Origin: Erythrobacter sp.
Lineage (GTDB): Bacteria > Pseudomonadota > Alphaproteobacteria > Sphingomonadales > Sphingomonadaceae
Assembly (NCBI GenBank): GCA_029937545.1
Contig: JAPYPR010000004.1
Coordinates: forward strand, 124,001-188,000
Length of the DNA: 64,000 nucleotides
Reading direction: 5' to 3'
Shown here: one piece after another, positions 42,841 through 52,010 of the stretch
How positions within the stretch are numbered: position 1 is the first letter of the stretch
Layout of the letters: each line of letters starts with the position of its first letter
The notes under the pieces: generated by a model
Database searches by the model: none
What the model saw: the letters and a program-made list of their open reading frames with translations, nothing else
Told to the model about the DNA's origin: nothing
Position numbers and translations under genes: made by a program

Positions 42841-43047
42841 ATCCGACATCGTAACGAGCGGGCGAATCCTGGCGCCCACAACCGCTAGTGGCTCACGCCA
42901 CCGTCACCCCCGAAACCCGGTACGAACGCGCATCCCGATCCCGCAAGCGCGACGAACTGTGGCGGGAATGGGGTCACCGCCCGCCGGATTAACGACTCAC
43001 GTCGGGCGCTCCGGTATAGCGGCGCGAACCGAACGGGAGGTCCGGAT

Positions 43048-43560
43048 ATGACCAATCGCACGATCCGCGCGCTGCTTTTTGCTGCCGCCGTTACCCTTCC
43101 CGCCAGCGCGGGCCATTCGCAGAGCGCCGGGCCGATGCCCGCCACCGAAGCCGGCTTCGTCGAGCATTTCGCGCCCTACTCCAGCCTCCCGGCCGAGCCG
43201 GAGGCGGCGGGCAAGGCCGTCGACCTCGGCACCTTCGACCCGCCGGTGGAGCCGGAACCCGTGCTCACCGTCCTCCAGAGCGGCGGCGCGTCCTATTACG
43301 GCCGCAAGTTCCACGGCCGCCGCACCGCCAGCGGCGAGCGGTTCGACATGCACGCCATGACCGCCGCGCACCGCACCCTGCCCTTCGGCACGCTGGTGCA
43401 GGTCACCAACCCCCGCAACGGCAAGAGCGTGACCGTGCGCATCAACGACCGCGGACCCTTCCACGGCAACCGTGTGATCGACCTCTCCCGCGCCGCCGCC
43501 ACCGAGCTCGGCCTGATCCAGCGCGGGCATGGCCGGGTCGAGCTGGCGTTACTGGACTGA
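43048..43560 (+). CDS. RlpA-family septal ring lytic transglycosylase / DPBB protein
   Basis: 170 aa, exported (TIRALLFAAAVTLPASAGHS signal). The C-terminal double-psi beta-barrel has SGGASYYGRKFHGRRTASGE (ASYYG and ASGE hallmarks), MTAAHRTLPFGTLVQVTNP and VTVRINDRGPFHGNRVIDLS with the RINDRGPF motif. It lacks a C-terminal SPOR domain, and no lipobox is visible, unlike E. coli RlpA. Probable role in peptidoglycan processing at division sites. Confidence 0.9.
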   Translation: MTNRTIRALLFAAAVTLPASAGHSQSAGPMPATEAGFVEHFAPYSSLPAEPEAAGKAVDLGTFDPPVEPEPVLTVLQSGGASYYGRKFHGRRTASGERFDMHAMTAAHRTLPFGTLVQVTNPRNGKSVTVRINDRGPFHGNRVIDLSRAAATELGLIQRGHGRVELALLD

Positions 43561-43726
43561 GTCCTTGTGTTTCGCAGCCGCATCCGCGGCTGGGTGGCCG
43601 ATGGCCGTCTGCGACTCCCTCGCTAGGCGCGCAGCAAGCTGCGCCCGCTGCGGGCGCGCGGTCGCGCTTGCCGGGCCTCCGCCGGCCCGGTGCTCCAGGA
43701 GAGGCGGGCGTTGCGCCACGGTGCCG

Positions 43727-44704
43727 TCAGCCTAGGCTCTCAACCCCCTCCCGCTCGACCACCCACACCCCCGCCGCATGGCGCGCGTGCAGCGCCCAGT
43801 CCGCGCCGTAGCGCCACCAGTCCTCGTCGCCCGCTTCGAAGGCGGCCATCTGGCATTCTTCCACCTCGAACTCGTTGCCCGACAGCTCTTCCATGGCTGG
43901 CGCATCGGCTGGCCGCGCTTCGTCCATTTCCTCGATCAGGCGCGAGACGGCGGGGTAGTGCGGACATTCGCGGCATTCCGGCCAGCTCGGCGCGGCGCAG
44001 CATAGCGCGTATTCCCCGTCATGCGTCTCGCCCACATTGCACACCGGCTCCCACCCCTCGGGCCCAACGCGGTAGTGCGGCTGCCCGCGATCGGTGCCGA
44101 GCCGCGCGCCGATGCAGTCGCAGGGCGGCTCAACCGGCGCATCGGGAGCCTCCGCAAGCCCCTCGCCACCGCTAGACATGGACCGCATGTTACACGGTCC
44201 AGGGGACAAAATGTCGGCGGTATCTGCGGGCGCTTCCACCTCGATCGCCTGCCCGCGGCGCATGCGGGTGAGCATGGCGTCGAAATTCTCCGCCAGCTCC
44301 TCGATCCGCGTGTCGGTGCGCAGGCGGTCGAGCCGGCCGAGATGCGCGAGCAGAAGGCGGTCGGAGAGCCGGCGGCGCGTGCAGACGAGCTCGCCGTGAT
44401 ACCACACCTCCTCCTCTACGCCGTTCATGGCGCAATCCGCCAGCTTGGCCTCCGCCGCCGCGCGCGCGACCACCAGCGCGGCATCCCACGCCCGCCCGAA
44501 GGCGGCGGAATTGCGCCGCGCGCGATAGCAGGTCTGGTGCGAGACCTTCACCCGCCGCGCCGCGGCCCGCACCGATCCGGTAACCGCCAGCGCCTCGAGA
44601 AACGCCACCTGTCGCTCCGCCACGAACTGCGTCTGCGGTGCATGCTCGTGCTCGGCGTAAAGATCGCCGTGGAGGATGATGGGGTGATTGGCCATATCGC
44701 TCAT
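43727..44704 (-). CDS. Hypothetical protein with N-terminal helix-turn-helix
   Basis: 325 aa. Residues about 20-100 contain QVAFLEALAVTGSVRAAARR and VKVSHQTCYRARRNSAAFGR, a terminase-small-subunit-like or phage-type HTH. The C-terminal half is Cys-rich (PCDCIGARLG, CCAAPSWPECRECPHYP), suggesting metal binding. I recall this architecture as a repeated hypothetical family in Erythrobacter genomes, without known function. Its coding sequence contains copy 2 of the dispersed palindrome (reads as GPCNMRSMS). Transcription probably starts from promoter A. Confidence 0.75.
   Translation of the reverse strand: MSDMANHPIILHGDLYAEHEHAPQTQFVAERQVAFLEALAVTGSVRAAARRVKVSHQTCYRARRNSAAFGRAWDAALVVARAAAEAKLADCAMNGVEEEVWYHGELVCTRRRLSDRLLLAHLGRLDRLRTDTRIEELAENFDAMLTRMRRGQAIEVEAPADTADILSPGPCNMRSMSSGGEGLAEAPDAPVEPPCDCIGARLGTDRGQPHYRVGPEGWEPVCNVGETHDGEYALCCAAPSWPECRECPHYPAVSRLIEEMDEARPADAPAMEELSGNEFEVEECQMAAFEAGDEDWWRYGADWALHARHAAGVWVVEREGVESLG
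44176..44202. repeat. Dispersed palindromic repeat, copy 2 (inside a gene)
   Basis: Identical to 39824-39850 except G to A at one position, which breaks one pair of the arms (TGGACCGC / ACGGTCCA). It lies in frame within the HTH gene, adding residues to a probable linker between the HTH and Cys-rich parts. Confidence 0.85.
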
Positions 44705-44925
44705 GCCGCAACTCCTGCCATCGAGGTTGGCACGAGTTTCCAAGCCGAAGGCGAGGCAAGCGCGGAAGCGAAGTCGAAGACGCAGCTGGCCAAAGGCCAC
44801 CTGCACGCGCGCCCGAGCTTATGCGAGGGATTCGAAGTCGAAGGCGTAGAAGGCGCGAAGCGCCAACCCAAGGGGCGCGGATGCGCCCCGCCCGGCGCTT
44901 GAGGGGCTAGATCAAAAAACTTCAT
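44701..44925 (-). CDS. Possible small leader gene built from repeat sequence
   Basis: 74 codons, MKFFDLAPQAPGGAHPRPLG onward, preceded by AGGTGAACCG and overlapping the HTH gene start as ATGA. However, most of it is translated repeat (Pro/Ser/Arg-rich), so coding capacity is doubtful. It may be translated without a conserved product, feeding ribosomes to the HTH gene. Confidence 0.3.
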   Translation of the reverse strand: MKFFDLAPQAPGGAHPRPLGWRFAPSTPSTSNPSHKLGRACRWPLASCVFDFASALASPSAWKLVPTSMAGVAA

Positions 44926-44991
44926 CGGTTCACCTGTGAGTTGTGAGCAGGGGAACCGGGTCAGTTATACAGCGGGGGGCGTGTAGGACAG
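44743..44991. repeat. Duplicated cassette flank, copy A
   Basis: Shares four blocks in the same order with 45331-45575: an 18-base block (44743-44760 = 45331-45348, AGCCGAAGGCGAGGCAAG), a 21-base block (44810-44830 = 45359-45379, core GAGCTTATGCGAGG), the block GAACCGGGT(C/T)AGTTATAC (44953-44970, 45538-45555) and GTAGGACAG (44983-44991, 45567-45575). Spacing between the blocks differs. The two copies flank the small gene at 45092-45298. This non-coding 387-base gap holds nothing else I can call. Confidence 0.8.
44964..44991 (-). promoter_or_regulatory. Minus-strand promoter A (duplicated)
   Basis: Reading the minus strand: -35-like CTGTCC (44991-44986), 16-base spacer, -10 TATAAC (44969-44964). 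The same boxes with the same spacing but a mostly different spacer occur at 45548-45575. This conservation of boxes only is good evidence for function. It would drive the HTH gene. Confidence 0.6.
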
Positions 44992-45091
44992 AGCGCACAT
45001 GCTGACGGCATGCGGGTGCCGAAAATCGCGATGGCGCGTTTGGATATGCACGGCAGGGAAATGTCCCCTCGCCCCGCAGGATCGCACGCCC

Positions 45092-45298
45092 ATGTTCACA
45101 CAGCTCAATCCGCCGCTGCCCGTAACCGTCATCGACCGAGGAAAGGGGCTGGCGCTGGCGGTGATCGACTACGGACCGGAGCACAATCTCATCTGGGTCA
45201 CCGCGCTCGACGAAAGCGGCGAGATCTGGTGCGCCCCAAACCCCAAGGTGCGGATGCAGGAAAATTGGACGATGGGGAGAGGGAAGGCGGGGGTTTAG
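45092..45298 (+). CDS. Small conserved hypothetical protein (MFTQLNPPLP family)
   Basis: 68 aa beginning MFTQLNPPLPVTVIDRGKGL, with AVIDYGPEHNLIWVTALDES and GEIWCAPNPKVRMQENWTMG. I recall many near-identical proteins in Sphingomonadales, often near HTH proteins like the one at 43727. No domain or function is known; short beta-strand pattern, possibly an SH3-like fold. ATG 45092 gives the family-standard start. Flanked on both sides by the repeated cassette blocks. Confidence 0.75.
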   Translation: MFTQLNPPLPVTVIDRGKGLALAVIDYGPEHNLIWVTALDESGEIWCAPNPKVRMQENWTMGRGKAGV

Positions 45299-45367
45299 AG
45301 CGCGTCGCTGCTAACTGGCGAAAGCATCCGAGCCGAAGGCGAGGCAAGGCCGACCGGCCGCCCGAGC

Positions 45368-45514
45368 TTATGCGAGGGAGCCAAGCGACGCGGACGCGTC
45401 GCGCCCGGCGTTAGAGGGCGCTAACAAACAAGTCCGCAGGGGCGAGAACACGGTGTGCCCCTCCCCGTGAGGACCGGCGGTGGGGGCGGCTTCGATGGTG
45501 ACGAGAGCGTTCAT
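45368..45514 (-). CDS. Possible 48-aa peptide downstream of promoter B
   Basis: ATG at 45514, preceded by AGGTGAACC, gives MNALVTIEAAPTAGPHGEGH and ends SLA at a stop inside the 21-base repeat block. It is the counterpart of the leader ORF in copy A but with a different sequence. No family recognised; may be a genuine small peptide or a by-product. Confidence 0.3.
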   Translation of the reverse strand: MNALVTIEAAPTAGPHGEGHTVFSPLRTCLLAPSNAGRDASASLGSLA

Positions 45515-45547
45515 GGTTCACCTCATGGGTTTGAGTGAACCGGGTTA

Positions 45548-45575
45548 GTTATACTCGGATTGGGGAGTAGGACAG
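45548..45575 (-). promoter_or_regulatory. Minus-strand promoter B (duplicated)
   Basis: CTGTCC (45575-45570), 16-base spacer, TATAAC (45553-45548) on the minus strand, matching promoter A. The inverted repeat GGTTCAC/GTGAACC just downstream overlaps the expected transcription start and could be an operator. Confidence 0.6.
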
Positions 45576-45663
45576 CATGCTTCAATGGTCCACAGTCCGA
45601 AAAGATAGGCTTGATTATCGCTCTTCTTTCTGGAACACACAAAGAACAGTTAGCGAGGGAAAA

Positions 45664-46329
45664 ATGTCGATCTATTCCATAAACCTCCGCAAACTCATCC
45701 GAATTTTCTTCGCCCCTCAGAATCTTCAAATTTCCATCCTGCGTGGTGACATTCGCAGTGAAATTGCGAAAGCCGAGGGTTTTGAATCCGGCGGTGGGGA
45801 TTTTTATGTGCCGTTCTGGCGTGATGCTAAAGACCATACCATAGGAGCGGTAGATCTTCACGCCGCCACTGAAGCTCGAATTTCGATGAATGAAAGAAGG
45901 CTCAACCTATATCCCCAACTCAGAGATGGCTTCTTGTTGTGGTGGAACGAGCGTCGCCGATGGACGAACGAGCCTTTTCAGGAAATCAGGTCGCCAAAAG
46001 GGTCGCTCCGCCTTGTACGACTGAATGCTACGGTGAAGATTGAAAATTTTCTATCTTTGCAAGGGCGCGAAGACGATCTGCACTTCGTCTATCCCTATTT
46101 TTCGCCGAGGCCAGAACTTTCAGAGCAGTCGGCGAGATTGATGCTTTGGGCAATCGCCACTGCAAACTTGGGTGTACCCGATGATGCTTTGCGAGTTTTG
46201 GACGTGATCCGTGGAAACAGCTTTTCAATCGACAACGTGGGTTTTGATGGGGGCGAAGAAGAAGAGTTCTCTCGCCGCTACCGCTCCACTATAAATTTAT
46301 GGGAAAGTCTCTGGTCAGAATATGAGTGA
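45664..46329 (+). CDS. Unknown protein, first gene of the AvcD-type defence operon
   Basis: 221 aa from ATG 45664, chosen because GAGGGA precedes it by 6 bases; an in-frame ATG at 45577 lies in the repeat edge and has no ribosome-binding site. No domain recognised. Trp/Arg/Glu-rich (GFLLWWNERRRWTNEPFQEI; RPELSEQSARLMLWAIATAN), mixed alpha/beta, soluble. Codon use is AT-richer than the surroundings, like the next two genes. It overlaps the deaminase gene by 8 bases, so the two are translated together; an accessory, inhibitor or sensor role is inferred. Confidence 0.75.
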   Translation: MSIYSINLRKLIRIFFAPQNLQISILRGDIRSEIAKAEGFESGGGDFYVPFWRDAKDHTIGAVDLHAATEARISMNERRLNLYPQLRDGFLLWWNERRRWTNEPFQEIRSPKGSLRLVRLNATVKIENFLSLQGREDDLHFVYPYFSPRPELSEQSARLMLWAIATANLGVPDDALRVLDVIRGNSFSIDNVGFDGGEEEEFSRRYRSTINLWESLWSEYE

Positions 46330-47878
46330 CTTAAAACCTCCTAGGCCGGATATTTATATCGGTCTCGTCGGTGCTGCTGGCACAGACCTAAAAGCTGTCG
46401 TGCGTGAACTACAATCACAGCTGCTGGTCGTAGGCTATTCAGTAGAGCACATTAAGCTTAGCGAGTTGATAGCTGCCGCAGTGGATATACCAAAGCTGCC
46501 CGATGAACATGACCGTATAAAGCATCACATGAAGGGTGGCGATGCGATTAGAACGAACTCTGAGGATGGTGGAGGTGTAGCGGCGTTGGCTATGCAGGCC
46601 ATAATCAGCAAGCGCGGTTCTACGAAAACCGGCCAAGCGCGCGCATTCGTTATCGACTCTTGTAAACACCCAGACGAGATTGACCTTTTTGATAAGGTTT
46701 ACGTACGAAACTACTATACGGTCTCAGTTCACCTGCCTCGCGCCAAACGGCAAACCAACCTTGAGATCAAAATCGCAAAGGATCGGCACGAACCGCCAGA
46801 CGCAAAAATCTCCGTTAAGGCATCCGAGATAATTCGAGCTGACGAGAAGAGCCAAGGCGACAAAGCGCAAAATGTTCGTGATGCGTTCCCAAAAGCGGAT
46901 TTTTTCATAAACGGCAAACGCGATTTGACCGGTCAGATAAAGCGATTTGTAGAAATCGTATTCGCTGAGCCATTTGTTACGCCGACTTTGGATGAGTTTG
47001 GCATGTTTATGGCAAAAGGCGCCGCATACAGATCGGCAGATTTGTCGCGCCAAGTAGGGGCTACGATACTAGACCGGCGGGGGTCGATTGTGAGCACTGG
47101 ATGTAACGAGGCCCCTTATCCTGGTGGCGGATTTTTTGTTGAGGACCACTCCGACGGAATCGATGATAATCGCGACTATGTAAAACAGATCGATCCAAAC
47201 GCCGCTGAAATCCAAAGCACATTTATCGAGATCGTGAGCATTCTGCGTGAAGCTGGACATATTGGTGACTTACCAATTGATCCGAAATCCGATGTTCAAC
47301 TTGTCGACGATCTTTTGCAGGGTGACCTCAAGCATTTGGCCCGGGATGCCCGTATCAGAAGTCTGATCGAATTTGGTCGAGTGGTTCATGCAGAGATGCA
47401 CGCAATTTGCGATGCAGCTGCCGGTGGCAAAGCGATAAAAGGTGCGTCTCTGTACTGCACAACCTTCCCGTGCCATCTATGTGCAAAACACATTATTGCG
47501 TCGGGTCTTGATGAAGTCATCTATGTCGAACCATACCCAAAAAGCCTGACCGCAAAGCTGTATGGTGACGAGATTGAGTTTGCGGATGAGAAAGACGCTG
47601 GAGGCTCGAAAATCGGATCCGACAGAGTTGTCTTCCGTCCGTTCCATGGGGTGAGTCCTACGCTTTACCAAAGAGCATTTCGATACAAAAAACGGAAGGA
47701 CAACAGAGGCATACTTACAGTCTGGGACCCTCTAAAGGCATGGCCTACAGACGCCTCATTAACTGTGGAAAGGCCTCGCATCGAAACTTCTGCTGTCAAA
47801 TCTCTTGCCGCTACACTCACAAAAGCCAAGATCGATTACGATTCGTGGGTTGAGGAGGGTTACGATGAAGAAGGATGA
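46322..47878 (+). CDS. avcD: Anti-phage dCTP/dCMP deaminase, AvcD-like
   Basis: 518 aa. N-terminal P-loop-like nucleotide-binding domain (IGLVGAAGTDLKAVV, residues 13-27), then a C-terminal zinc-dependent deoxycytidylate deaminase domain with HAE at 356-358 (VVHAEMHAICDAAAGG) and the PCxxC motif with Cys384 and Cys387 (TTFPCHLCAKHIIASG). This two-domain architecture is that of AvcD/anti-phage dCTP deaminases, which deplete dCTP during infection. All zinc ligands are intact, so it should be active. Middle gene of a three-gene operon; in Vibrio the partner is an RNA (AvcI), here protein genes flank it. Confidence 0.85.
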   Translation: MSDLKPPRPDIYIGLVGAAGTDLKAVVRELQSQLLVVGYSVEHIKLSELIAAAVDIPKLPDEHDRIKHHMKGGDAIRTNSEDGGGVAALAMQAIISKRGSTKTGQARAFVIDSCKHPDEIDLFDKVYVRNYYTVSVHLPRAKRQTNLEIKIAKDRHEPPDAKISVKASEIIRADEKSQGDKAQNVRDAFPKADFFINGKRDLTGQIKRFVEIVFAEPFVTPTLDEFGMFMAKGAAYRSADLSRQVGATILDRRGSIVSTGCNEAPYPGGGFFVEDHSDGIDDNRDYVKQIDPNAAEIQSTFIEIVSILREAGHIGDLPIDPKSDVQLVDDLLQGDLKHLARDARIRSLIEFGRVVHAEMHAICDAAAGGKAIKGASLYCTTFPCHLCAKHIIASGLDEVIYVEPYPKSLTAKLYGDEIEFADEKDAGGSKIGSDRVVFRPFHGVSPTLYQRAFRYKKRKDNRGILTVWDPLKAWPTDASLTVERPRIETSAVKSLAATLTKAKIDYDSWVEEGYDEEG

Positions 47879-48029
47879 GCTTTTTCGAGAGATCGAAAAG
47901 ACCGTTCGGCGGCATAATCGGATCGAGAAGGAAGAAGCCGCAGCATACGAAATTGAGCTCTCACTCAGGTCCGGAGATAATCCGGGTTACATTTTTGAGA
48001 CCCGCCCAAAACTGGTCGTTGGTGGCTGA
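47865..48029 (+). CDS. Small charged protein downstream of the deaminase
   Basis: 54 aa, MKKDELFREIEKTVRRHNRI then EKEEAAAYEIELSLRSGDNP, ending RPKLVVGG. A single charged amphipathic helix followed by a short tail; no family recognised. It overlaps the deaminase gene by 14 bases and shares its AT-richer composition. Size and placement are compatible with a regulator or antidote of the deaminase, which is only inference. Confidence 0.6.
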   Translation: MKKDELFREIEKTVRRHNRIEKEEAAAYEIELSLRSGDNPGYIFETRPKLVVGG

Positions 48030-48056
48030 AAGACGACGACACAGCGCCGCCTCTCA

Positions 48057-48113
48057 TTACTGCTCCAACATTGACTTGGGGTACTGCCCCGTATAACTCT
48101 GCGCCACCTCAGC
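48057..48113 (-). pseudogene. Diverged duplicate of the 3' end of uvrA
   Basis: On the minus strand this reads AEVAQSYTGQYPKSMLEQ-stop. The real UvrA C-terminal end is [18 protein letters not shown] and six more residues. About two thirds of the bases match across the segment, mostly third-position differences, so it is an old or foreign copy. It has no start region and sits between the defence operon and uvrA. It looks like the boundary scar of an insertion next to uvrA. Confidence 0.75.
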
Positions 48114-48115
48114 CA

Positions 48116-48133
48116 TCCCCGCTTGCGCGGGGA
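48116..48133. repeat. REP-like GC palindrome between avc operon and uvrA
   Basis: TCCCCGC-TTGC-GCGGGGA, a perfect 7-bp hairpin lying 14 bases beyond the uvrA stop and 87 bases after the last defence gene. Similar short GC palindromes are common intergenic repeats in proteobacteria; it can serve as a hairpin for either convergent transcript but no T run follows. Confidence 0.6.
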
Positions 48134-48146
48134 CAGGCTTCCGTTG

Positions 48147-51098
48147 CTACTCGGCGGCTTCCTTCTGCCGCGCCAGCATCGGCTTGAGATACTGCCCCGT
48201 ATAGCTCCCCGCCACCTCGGCCACCTCCTCCGGCGTGCCCTGCGCGACGATCTCGCCGCCCCGCACGCCGCCGCCGGGGCCGAGGTCGAGGATGTGGTCG
48301 GCGGTCTTGATGACGTCGAGATTGTGCTCGATCACTACCACCGAATTGCCCTGCTCCACCAGCCGGTGCAGCACTTCGAGGAGCTTGCGGACATCCTCGA
48401 AATGGAGGCCCGTGGTGGGCTCGTCGAGGATGTAGAGCGTCTGGCCGGTGCTGCGCTTGGACAGTTCCTTGGCTAGTTTCACCCGCTGCGCCTCGCCGCC
48501 TGACAGCGTGGTCGCCTGCTGGCCGACCTTGACGTAGCCCAGCCCCACCTCGTTCAGCATGTGCATCTTGTCGCGGATCGGGGGGACGGCCTTGAAGAAG
48601 GTTTCCGCATCTTCGATCGTCATGTCGAGCACGTCGGCGATGGAGAGGCCCTTGAACTTCACCTCCAGCGTTTCGCGATTGTAGCGCTTGCCGCCGCATT
48701 CCTCGCAGGTGACGTAGACGTCGGGCAGGAAGTGCATCTCGATCTTGATCAGCCCGTCGCCCTGGCACGCCTCGCAGCGGCCGCCCTTGACGTTGAAGCT
48801 GAAGCGGCCGGGCTTGTAGCCGCGCGCCTTGGCTTCGGGGAGCCCGGCGAACCAGTCGCGGATCTGGGTGAAGGCGCCGGTATAGGTGGCGGGGTTAGAG
48901 CGCGGGGTGCGGCCGATGGGCGACTGGTCGATCTCGATCACCTTGTCGCAATATTCGAGGCCGGTGACCTTGTCGTGCGCGCCTGCGACCACGCGTGCGC
49001 CGTTGAGCTGGCGCGCGGCGGAGGCGTAGAGCGTGTCGATGGTGAAGGATGACTTGCCCGAACCCGAGACGCCGGTGATGCAGGTGAAGGTGCCGAGCGG
49101 GATGGAGGCGGTGACGTCGTTGAGGTTGTTCGCCCGCGCGCCGTGGACGGTGAGCTTGCGCCCATTGCCCTTGCGCCGCGTGGCCGGGACGCTGATTTCG
49201 CGCCGCCCGGTGAGGTAATCGGCGGTGAGCGATTTCTTGGACTTCAGCACCTGTTTCAGCGTGCCCTGCGCCACAACCTCGCCCCCGCGCACACCGGCGC
49301 CGGGGCCAAGGTCGACCACATGGTCCGCCTGGCGAATGGCATCCTCGTCATGCTCGACCACGATCACCGTATTGCCGAGATCGCGCAGGCGCTTGAGGGT
49401 TTCCAGCAGCCGGTCGTTGTCCCGCTGGTGAAGGCCGATGCTGGGTTCGTCGAGCACGTAAAGGACGCCCGACAGGCCACTGCCGATCTGCGAGGCGAGA
49501 CGGATGCGCTGGCTCTCCCCGCCGCTCAATGTGCCGCTGGTGCGATCGAGGTTGAGGTAGTCGAGCCCGACATTGTCGAGAAAGCCCAGCCGCTCGTTGA
49601 TCTCCTTCAGGATGGCCTTGGCGATCTGCTGCTGCGTATCGTTCAGCGCATCGGGGAGCTTGAGGAAATAGTCCTTCGCATCGGCCACGCTCATCTTGGT
49701 AGGCGTGGCGATGTCGGTCCCGGCAATCTTCACTGCCAGCGCCTTTTCGTTGAGGCGCTTTCCGTCGCAGGTTTCGCATGGCTGCGCGGTCTGGAACTTG
49801 GCCAGCTCCTCGCGCATCCAGGCGCTTTCGGTCTGCAGCATGCGGCGGTTCAAGTTGCCGATCACGCCCTCGAACGGCTTCTTCACCGTGTACTGCTTGC
49901 GCCCGTCCTTGAAGGTGAGCGGGATGGCGCGGCCCTTGGTGCCATAGAGGATGATGTCGCGGATTCCCTTGTCGAACTTCTCCCACGGCGTGGTGAGGTC
50001 GAACTCGTATTCCTTCGCAAGGCTGGCGAGCACCTGCATGTAATAGGGACTCGGCGGGTTGGACTTGGCCCAGGGCACCACCGCGCCCTTCTTGAGGCTG
50101 AGCGCCTCGTTCGGCACGACCAGCTGTGGGTCGAAAAGCTGTTTCTCGCCGATCCCGTCGCATGTCGGGCAGGCCCCCTGCGGCGCGTTGAACGAGAACA
50201 GCCGCGGCTCGACTTCCTCGATGGTGAAGCCGGAGACGGGGCAGGAGAAACGTTCGGAGAAGACGATGCGATTGTCGGGCAGGCCCGCACCCTTCATCGC
50301 GCCGCCCTTCCCCGCATCCGGACCGATGGTTGCAGGCCGCACGTCCTGCCGTTCCGCCAGAGCCTCGGCCACGGTCGTGTCGGCAAGATCGACATAGGCC
50401 AGCCCGTCCGCCAGCTTGAGCGCGGTCTCGAAACTGTCCGCAAGCCGCGTCTCGAGTCCTGCCTTAACTGCCAGCCGGTCGACCACCACTTCGATATCGT
50501 GCTTGAACTTCTTGTCGAGCGCGGGCGCATCCTCGATCGGGTGCATCTCGCCATCGATGCGCACGCGGGTGAAGCCCGCCTTTTGCCATTCAGCCAGCTC
50601 CTTGCGGTATTCCCCTTTGCGCCCGCGCACCACCGGCGCGAGCAAATAGAGCCGCGTGCCTTCGGGCAGCGCCATCACCCGGTCGACCATGTTGGACACG
50701 GTCTGCGCCTCGATCGGCAGGCCGGTCGTGGGCGAGTACGGCACCCCCACCCTCGCCCACAACAGGCGCATGTAGTCGTAGATTTCGGTGACGGTCGCCA
50801 CGGTACTGCGCGGATTGCGGCTGGTGGTCTTCTGCTCGATGGAAATTGCGGGAGAGAGCCCGTCGATATGCTCGACATCGGGCTTCTGCATCATTTCGAG
50901 GAACTGGCGCGCATAGGCACTGAGACTCTCGACATAGCGCCGCTGACCCTCGGCATAGATCGTGTCGAACGCCAGGCTCGACTTGCCCGAGCCCGAAAGG
51001 CCGGTGATCACGATGAGGCTATCGCGCGGCAGGTCGATATCCACGCCTTTGAGATTATGCTCCCGCGCGCCGCGGACGGAAATTTTGGTGAGTGCCAT
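48147..51098 (-). CDS. uvrA: Excinuclease ABC subunit A
   Basis: 983 aa damage-recognition ATPase of nucleotide excision repair. Two ABC modules: Walker [21 protein letters not shown] and [20 protein letters not shown], signatures [15 protein letters not shown] and [15 protein letters not shown], Zn fingers CPTCDG, CETCDG, CEACQG/CEECGG. ATG 51098 gives [20 protein letters not shown], the normal start. Slightly longer than usual (940-970 aa). The 3' end is duplicated at 48057-48113. Confidence 0.97.
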
Positions 51099-51416
51099 GG
51101 GCAGGCAGATGGGCCTTCGACTTGGACAATTCCAGCCCCTTGCCTCTTTGGGCATTGGCCTGATCGAATGCGTTTGCGAACCTGTCGCAAATCAAACATC
51201 GACGCTTGGAAAATGCTACGTCAACAGCTAACTCGGAAAAAGCTATCGCGCACAAACGCTTGTAAACTAACGGAAGGAAGCCTGTGTGAAGCAGACACCT
51301 AAAATAGGCAAGAATCAAATTACTTATTCTGGAAAGTAATTCTCCGAATTCGCAGCGGATTGCATACCCTAAAAATACGTGATTTCGATCTAGCGCCCTG
51401 AGATTCGTGGTATTTT
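51099..51416. other. Divergent region uvrA / FixJ-like gene
   Basis: 318 bases, AT-rich from about 51200 to 51410. It must contain promoters for both divergent genes. I see no GAACN7GAAC LexA box, unlike recA. No small gene or repeat is convincing. Confidence 0.45.
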
Positions 51417-52010
51417 ATGTACATCTATATTGTCGAACAAGATGAGCGAGAAAAAGAACATATTTGTGAGGTGCTCGCTCACATGCATCCGAAGGTGCAG
51501 TGGTACGATAGAGGCAAACCGTTCTTGGAAGCGTGCGAAAACCTTCCGCGCGGCCTCGTAATTCTGGATACCTGCTTGCCCGATCTCGACGGCATGGCGC
51601 TGCTGCACAAGCTGAAGGGCGACTGCGACAACGGCCATGAAATTATCCTGTTGAGCGGACCTTGCAGTGTAAGCGACGCGGTTCACGCCATGAAGGAAGG
51701 GGCGATAAACTTCTTCGAGAAGCCGTTTCGGCAGGCAGAGATGGTCGATGCCGTCAAGGAAGCGCGTGACAAGCTGACGCAGGCTCCATCGACCCAACTC
51801 GACGACCAGGATCTCATGGCTTTGGCCCAACTGACTCCGCGTGAGTTGAGCGTATTGAAGGCGTCGAGCAACGGTCGAAGCGCGAAATCGGTTGCACACT
51901 CGCTCGGCTTGAGCGTCAGGACGATCGAGATGCATCGATCGAACATCATCAAGAAGCTGGATGCGCAGAATTTCGCAGGCGCACTAGTACTTGCCGCCAA
52001 GGCTCTTTGA
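51417..52010 (+). CDS. FixJ-family two-component response regulator
   Basis: 197 aa. Receiver domain with phospho-acceptor Asp51 (GLVILDTCLPDLDGMALLHK) and conserved Lys102 (NFFEKPF), then a LuxR-type HTH (LTPRELSVLKASSNGRSAKS; VAHSLGLSVRTIEMHRSNII). No partner kinase is adjacent. Its position 178 bases before the first RTX gene suggests it controls that gene, possibly with the LuxR-like gene at 54209. Confidence 0.9.
   Translation: MYIYIVEQDEREKEHICEVLAHMHPKVQWYDRGKPFLEACENLPRGLVILDTCLPDLDGMALLHKLKGDCDNGHEIILLSGPCSVSDAVHAMKEGAINFFEKPFRQAEMVDAVKEARDKLTQAPSTQLDDQDLMALAQLTPRELSVLKASSNGRSAKSVAHSLGLSVRTIEMHRSNIIKKLDAQNFAGALVLAAKAL

Follow-up and report, generated by a model that had tools for sequence, protein, structure and literature searches.

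The control and triggering of nucleotide-depleting defences are known in few systems, by means of an RNA in the case of AvcD and of a nucleotide signal in that of Clover. The characterised AvcD systems are described as being held in check by a noncoding RNA (PMC10511110), AvcI, which is reported to be encoded beside avcD (PMC10511110, PMC12409362) and to comprise about 171 bases in its minimal form and slightly less than 300 as a transcript (PMC10511110). Clover is described as combining a dGTPase, CloA, with a nucleotidyltransferase of the Pol-beta type, CloB, that makes p3diT (PMC12265719). The locus that we deal with here lies at 45664-48029 of a 64,000-nucleotide stretch of an Erythrobacter sp. 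genome (contig JAPYPR010000004.1; "the window" hereafter), where an AvcD-family deaminase gene overlaps on both sides with open reading frames (ORFs), designated ORF1 and ORF3. That these three overlapping genes form an anti-phage operon is the best explanation of the data, and our preferred reading, to which we assign a probability of somewhat less than one half (about 0.47), is that of a nucleotide-depletion defence under protein control, in which ORF3 would be a dedicated partner and ORF1 an exchangeable sensor or regulator. Two concrete candidates for regulators are thereby put forward, a small protein encoded at the 3' end of avcD across a lineage and an upstream protein common to dGTPase, SIR2 and TIR loci.

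The middle gene (46322..47878, + strand; 518 amino acids), which would be the effector, encodes an AvcD-family (anti-phage dCTP/dCMP) deaminase with an intact zinc site. Its product passes narrowly, with 401.8 bits, the cut-off of 400 of the NCBIfam model NF041025, 'anti-phage dCTP deaminase', and matches strongly the PADLOC dCTPase model (1.1e-143), while the zinc-site residues His356, Glu358, Cys384 and Cys387 (HAE and PCxxC motifs) are invariant in 29 aligned rows, including that of the window. Its AlphaFold2 model (predicted local distance difference test, pLDDT, 87.2) rendered Foldseek matches to dCMP deaminases and to adenylate-kinase-like proteins, and no relative of it came from a scan of viral contigs. 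ORF1 (45664..46329, + strand; 221 amino acids) overlaps the deaminase gene by 8 bases, and this gene in turn overlaps by 14 bases ORF3 (47865..48029, + strand; 54 amino acids), which has its own ribosome-binding site within the deaminase gene; such an overlap of three genes on the same strand makes it probable that they are translationally coupled. The initial annotation, made from the letters of the DNA, had put forward the AvcD-type identity, the three-frame layout with its coordinates and overlaps, which our frame calls reproduced, and an AT-rich block, which corresponds to the two kilobases of lowest GC (guanine plus cytosine) content among the 64 of the window (46001-48000, 0.49, vs 0.52-0.72 for the remaining ones). 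It had also proposed a P-loop-like N-terminal domain, and the matches to adenylate-kinase-related proteins agree with a nucleotide-kinase-like fold, but the motif itself, GLVGAAGTD, lacks the lysine usually present in a Walker A motif.

The same three frames recur in another genus, in Pontixanthobacter sp. CEM42, where they are also located beside uvrA. In both genomes the ORF3 start precedes the end of the deaminase gene by 14 bases, with a GGAGG ribosome-binding site upstream of its ATG, inside the end of that gene. Amino-acid identity between the two is 68% for ORF1, 78% for the deaminase and 58% for ORF3, and the ratios of nonsynonymous to synonymous differences (pN/pS) are 0.26, 0.17 and 0.44, respectively, in frame, vs 0.99-1.98 in shifted frames over all three genes (0.99-1.53 for ORF1 and ORF3). 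Judging from these substitution patterns, ORF1, the deaminase and ORF3 all show coding constraint, so that the flanking frames, as the initial annotation had taken them, appear to be genes, and the operon of the window would be more than a chance arrangement, because another genus carries the same three constrained frames. Among 298 genomes of the family of the window, 11 contain a match to ORF1 and 13 one to the deaminase (E 1e-20 or better); the two occur together in two genomes, those of the window and of Pontixanthobacter sp. CEM42.

A tree of 45 AvcD proteins places the deaminase of the window in a clade of 13 alphaproteobacterial members, with a support of 92/96 that is slightly below the mark of the tool for firm branches. 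A frame of 50-75 amino acids with an ATG start and a ribosome-binding site, starting between -20 and +50 from the deaminase stop, is present in 12 of these 13 members. The same search rendered such frames at 5 of the 32 other AvcDs and at 6 of 307 control genes, which were long, well-scoring genes of the fetched loci, related rows not being independent. The thirteenth member (L044) has a frame of 57 amino acids whose start lies within the deaminase gene, 80 bases from its end. By position, an ORF3-like small frame therefore accompanies the 3' end of the deaminase gene across the clade. A profile made from five of these frames (those of the window and of L035, L045, L046 and L148) and searched against 5667 background frames found, as its top match beyond the training set, the 57-amino-acid frame of L044 (E 0.048), whereas the top match of a second profile, made from the frames of L130, L131, L132, L133 and L150, was a frame downstream of the AvcD gene of Vibrio nigripulchritudo (L155), beyond the clade (E 0.058). 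For ORF3, searches of Pfam, NCBIfam and PADLOC up to E 1, and of PHROGs, rendered nothing. A small frame that is fixed in an AvcD clade and appears to be under coding constraint makes plausible a protein regulator that replaces AvcI or joins it. Members of a second AvcD clade (L135, L138, L139, L158) are also followed by small frames, whose make-up differs and which possibly represent another partner family.

The locus resembles AvcID in the deaminase family (AvcD, NF041025, PADLOC dCTPase), in the zinc motifs and in the two-domain architecture, and the chemistry is presumed to be the same, but the partner in AvcID is the noncoding AvcI, whereas here avcD is flanked by overlapping protein frames and no candidate for such an RNA came to light. 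There is no intergenic gap before avcD, given its overlap with ORF1, and the leader before ORF1 (45577..45663, + strand) showed no unusual RNA structure, its folding being no better than that of shuffled sequences (z 1.04 for these 87 nucleotides, z -0.74 for 144 nucleotides from 45520). A scan of Rfam over 43000-51500 rendered three sub-threshold matches, none of them in the leader, where there was no match up to E 5, although it was not checked whether Rfam holds a model of AvcI. A canonical AvcI RNA upstream, which the initial annotation had named as what would overturn its proposal, was accordingly not found in the leader by either folding or Rfam.

ORF1 is, in turn, a mobile partner that is found directly beside other effectors in some related bacteria. 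A scan of a genome collection, incomplete since it was seeded by one motif, rendered 77 loci, mostly of Alphaproteobacteria, and further relatives were found in 13 plasmid records and at one locus of a viral contig. Neighbours were counted by direct frame searches at 90 ORF1 loci, including the window and some duplicates, and because the queries were chosen from neighbours already seen, the figures are counts rather than a test of enrichment. Effectors adjoin ORF1 at 12 of these loci, including AvcD (2), dGTPase (3) and a SIR2 protein (1), with a ThsB-like TIR protein upstream at four loci, another TIR protein downstream at one, and, at one more, an 8xMP-like membrane protein with a DUF4406-like gene after it. 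The family matches of the neighbours were to dGTPase (454-461 bits, PADLOC), SIR2_2, TIR_2/ThsB, DUF6338 and DUF4238, those to 8xMP and DUF4406 being slightly under their cut-offs. In the one genome checked for this (G014), the dGTPase linked to ORF1 (464 bits) comes in addition to a separate copy of 335 bits. ThsB-like TIR, SIR2_2 and dGTPase proteins deplete nucleotides or NAD+ (nicotinamide adenine dinucleotide) in known systems, as the deaminase would, although they belong to other protein families and substitute for one another beside ORF1. With respect to AvcD itself, ORF1 adjoins 2 of the 49 AvcD loci scanned, whose flanks varied in length and were often of 1.5 kb, and AvcD adjoins 2 of the 90 ORF1 loci. 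ORF1 as a general partner of AvcD can thus be discarded: of the two flanking frames, for which the initial annotation had proposed gene order around AvcD homologues as a check, ORF3 is linked to the deaminase by position within its 13-member clade, and ORF1 is not linked to it in general.

An effector lies directly downstream, on the same strand, in six of the seven loci of the ORF1 tree labelled as Erythrobacteraceae (the window being taken as such), L108 being the exception; effectors overlap ORF1 in the window and in L052, the Pontixanthobacter locus, and follow it on the same strand within 105 nucleotides in L055, L065, L069, L070 and L084. Two of these loci, from Qipengyuania flava (L065) and Q. 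citrea (L070), occupy a common site beside lepA, and their DNA aligns over the upstream region, ORF1 (85%) and an HNH gene (84%). BLASTN found no match between the stretches that lie between ORF1 and the HNH gene, which encode an 8xMP-like and a DUF4406-like protein in Q. flava and a dGTPase in Q. citrea. The two ORF1s are sister branches (99/91) in a clade otherwise with dGTPase partners. As far as can be judged from these alignments, the lepA site provides the clearest evidence of the modularity of ORF1, the effector having apparently been exchanged and ORF1 retained. The presence of ORF1 beside other immune enzymes in relatives suggests a shared immune switch not described before; it could serve as bait for further immune effectors in Alphaproteobacteria.

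Some other observations concern relatives of ORF1 and of its neighbours. On a viral contig, the large terminase and portal genes flank an ORF1 homologue (L129, 6001-6663). At two loci ORF1 homologues are found near a Gabija pair on the other strand (L098, 6765-10333; L103, 1913-5487); the pair of L098 scored 1139 bits for GajA and 1076 bits for GajB, and that of L103, the family scan covering L098 only, is alike in appearance. At L100 (3641-5677), which is counted among the loci with no queried protein adjacent, a large protein encoded 288 nucleotides upstream of ORF1 contains a domain like the DUF4406-like protein of Q. flava (E 2.2e-22), its match to DUF4406 being below the cut-off. The genome of the window also carries a second, more distant dGTPase-like gene (L205, G000:C94:139314-140681; 227 bits) besides a copy of 334 bits.

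The predicted structure of ORF1 is a confident one (pLDDT 93.5; predicted template modelling score, pTM, 0.89). Its best matches, weak as they are, would be to Cas4/RecB/Dna2-type PD-(D/E)XK nucleases: about 15 of the first 20 Foldseek rows are of what we take to be the PD-(D/E)XK fold, flagellar MS-ring chains being among the others, Argonaute-associated Cas4 proteins and AdnAB are among the best matches, and the viral library rendered PD-(D/E)XK proteins, with no match reaching E 0.001. ORF1 differs from those nucleases in that the strand expected to hold (D/E)xK reads Y-P-Y-F, and in having no support from sequence profiles. In an alignment of 58 rows, Y143 is present in all of them and position 145 holds Tyr in 55 rows and Phe in the other 3; position 125 is K, R or T in all (K or R in 56), and D46, D54, Y83, N102 and D180 are invariant. 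The catalytic D and (D/E)xK appear to be missing, in these 58 rows, from the positions that the predicted fold would assign to them, a placement deduced from topology. The prediction for ORF1, a weak one, is thus a PD-(D/E)XK-like fold that lacks the nuclease residues, and with metal-binding positions devoid of catalytic residues it would bind without cutting. Its profile found nothing among solved structures up to E 10; searches of the protein against Pfam, NCBIfam and PADLOC, up to E 1, were likewise empty, and PHROGs rendered one match at chance level (E 0.27). A relationship to the deaminase was discarded by profile comparison (0.4%), and one to nucleotidyltransferases because there was neither a family match nor any such protein among the best 50 of 141 fold rows. 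This last point bears on Clover, as described in PMC12265719, with which the locus shares a nucleotide-depleting effector paired with a controlling protein, and dGTPases, beside which the ORF1 family is also found; the effector of the window is nevertheless a zinc deaminase and not a deoxynucleoside triphosphatase with an HD motif, and neither ORF1 nor ORF3 matches a nucleotidyltransferase family. Among the matches listed from the open-access literature, none dealt with a protein partner of AvcD, with ORF1 or with uvrA as a hotspot of defence genes, which is weak evidence of absence, subscription papers being mostly uncovered.

Under the reading that we prefer, infection would lead the deaminase to convert dCTP and dCMP to dUTP and dUMP, starving phage replication. 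ORF3, translated from a start inside the deaminase gene, would bind the deaminase and tune its activity, most likely as an inhibitor and hence as a protein counterpart of AvcI. ORF1, the first product of the same message, would be the exchangeable sensor or regulator and, according to its predicted fold, might bind nucleic acid or a nucleotide ligand without cutting it; the same family would serve the dGTPase, the membrane protein with the DUF4406-like neighbour, the SIR2 protein and the TIR proteins. Several results weigh against this. Regarding ORF3, the first profile performed poorly on L130 (E 0.85), L150 (26), L149 (28) and L132 (47) and did not include L131, L133 and L153 among its listed matches, and the second one placed the ORF3 of the window at E 15, rank 35 of 5667; to the extent that such scores reflect kinship, this would be clear in only six of the 13 clade members, and plausible for the others. 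That ORF3 is an inhibitor of the deaminase, rather than a helper, is itself conjectural. Regarding ORF1, only those 12 of the 90 loci adjoin one of the effectors, 70 have no queried protein adjacent, and DUF6338 and DUF4238 adjoin it at two and six loci, respectively; its union with AvcD is confined to one lineage. Since 14 of 14 control genomes are matched by the dGTPase model, this is not specific for defence and does not prove a defence role of these dGTPases. Finally, the best Foldseek match of ORF1, to Dna2, is weak (E 1.6e-3, probability 1.00, TM 0.50), and its comparison by hhalign with 17 AddB-type nuclease domains gave a probability of 4.5%, which leaves sequence homology to AddB-type PD-(D/E)XK domains unsupported.

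The high number of ORF1 loci with no queried neighbour is what would be expected if ORF1 were an autonomous gene, of defence or of a mobile element, linked to the effectors merely through common islands and hotspots. The copy between terminase and portal genes, those near Gabija genes of the opposite strand, and the recurrence of both ORF1 and AvcD beside uvrA point the same way, but the effectors that overlap ORF1 or follow it closely on the same strand, their position directly after it in most Erythrobacteraceae loci, and the exchange of the effector in Qipengyuania argue against such independence, which we consider somewhat unlikely. A bolder version of protein control, in which ORF1 would found a new family of immune switches, pseudo-nucleases that stay constant, sense an infection signal and license swapped nucleotide- or NAD-depleting effectors (dCTP deaminase, dGTPase, the DUF4406-like/8xMP-like pair, SIR2 and TIR), with ORF3 among fast-evolving protein antitoxins that would replace AvcI in an alphaproteobacterial AvcD lineage, is a speculative possibility that we hold to be rather unlikely as a whole. 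It can also be the case that ORF3 is an activator, a chaperone or a structural subunit of this deaminase lineage. Its constant place where the deaminase gene ends, and the overlap, fit a subunit and an antitoxin equally; its small size, its charge and an evolution so fast that profiles hardly connect the clade members seem more typical of antitoxins or inhibitors, which makes a role of this kind rather doubtful for ORF3 as against inhibition.

An ordinary AvcID system, in which an AvcI-type RNA transcribed from the leader or from inside ORF1 would restrain the deaminase and ORF1 would be unrelated and only co-transcribed, has in its favour that the characterised AvcD systems are described as restrained by a noncoding RNA (PMC10511110) and that most ORF1 loci have no recognised partner. 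It is unlikely, however, in view of the overlap that leaves no space before avcD, of a leader neither structured beyond shuffles nor matched in Rfam, and of the retention in two genera of an operon whose ORF1 and ORF3 seem to be constrained. One anti-phage dCTP deaminase known from Escherichia coli works as a lone protein gene, and the flanking frames could in principle be irrelevant, the deaminase working alone; the in-frame pN/pS of ORF1 and ORF3 against those of the shifted frames, as well as the small frame present throughout the AvcD clade, make this very improbable.

With regard to its setting, the operon sits between uvrA (48147..51098, - strand; a frame of 983 amino acids) and an RlpA-like gene (Pfam DPBB_1), and the 3' flank of uvrA (43561-48146 of the window), of which uvrA is the chromosomal anchor, is a defence hotspot in the presumed genus of the window and a place to look for further immune effectors. 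In a congener (L198) a gene like the RlpA-like gene of the window is found about 40 bases after uvrA, constituting a near-empty site. An imperfect copy (77%) of the tail of uvrA, 66 nucleotides long (48062..48127, + strand), which a repeat search paired with 48170-48235, is probably an insertion scar beside uvrA. Many of 29 congeneric uvrA flanks (1.3-1.5 kb each) bear different cargo, and several of them uvrA-tail copies. Ten chosen cargo proteins included a TIR protein, an AbiU/AIPR protein, an OLD-like ATPase and a match to PDC-M38A, one of the rest being HEPN-like below the cut-off and the others bearing no defence label save for a marginal match (L197). A search of 111 loci of ORF1 or AvcD, which include duplicates, found uvrA (>75% identity) in 12 distinct ones (L035/L052, L039/L073, L041, L044, L045, L046, L047, L051, L069, L082, L087 and L151), L123 having short uvrA matches only (66-74%). 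Upstream of the operon, the stretches 44868-44991 and 45510-45575 both align, at about 77%, with one and the same piece of the Pontixanthobacter locus L035, the second of them preceding a short remnant frame (45368-45514, - strand). This suggests that the beginning of the gene at 43727-44704, which has a helix-turn-helix-like match below the cut-off, was duplicated and the copy truncated.

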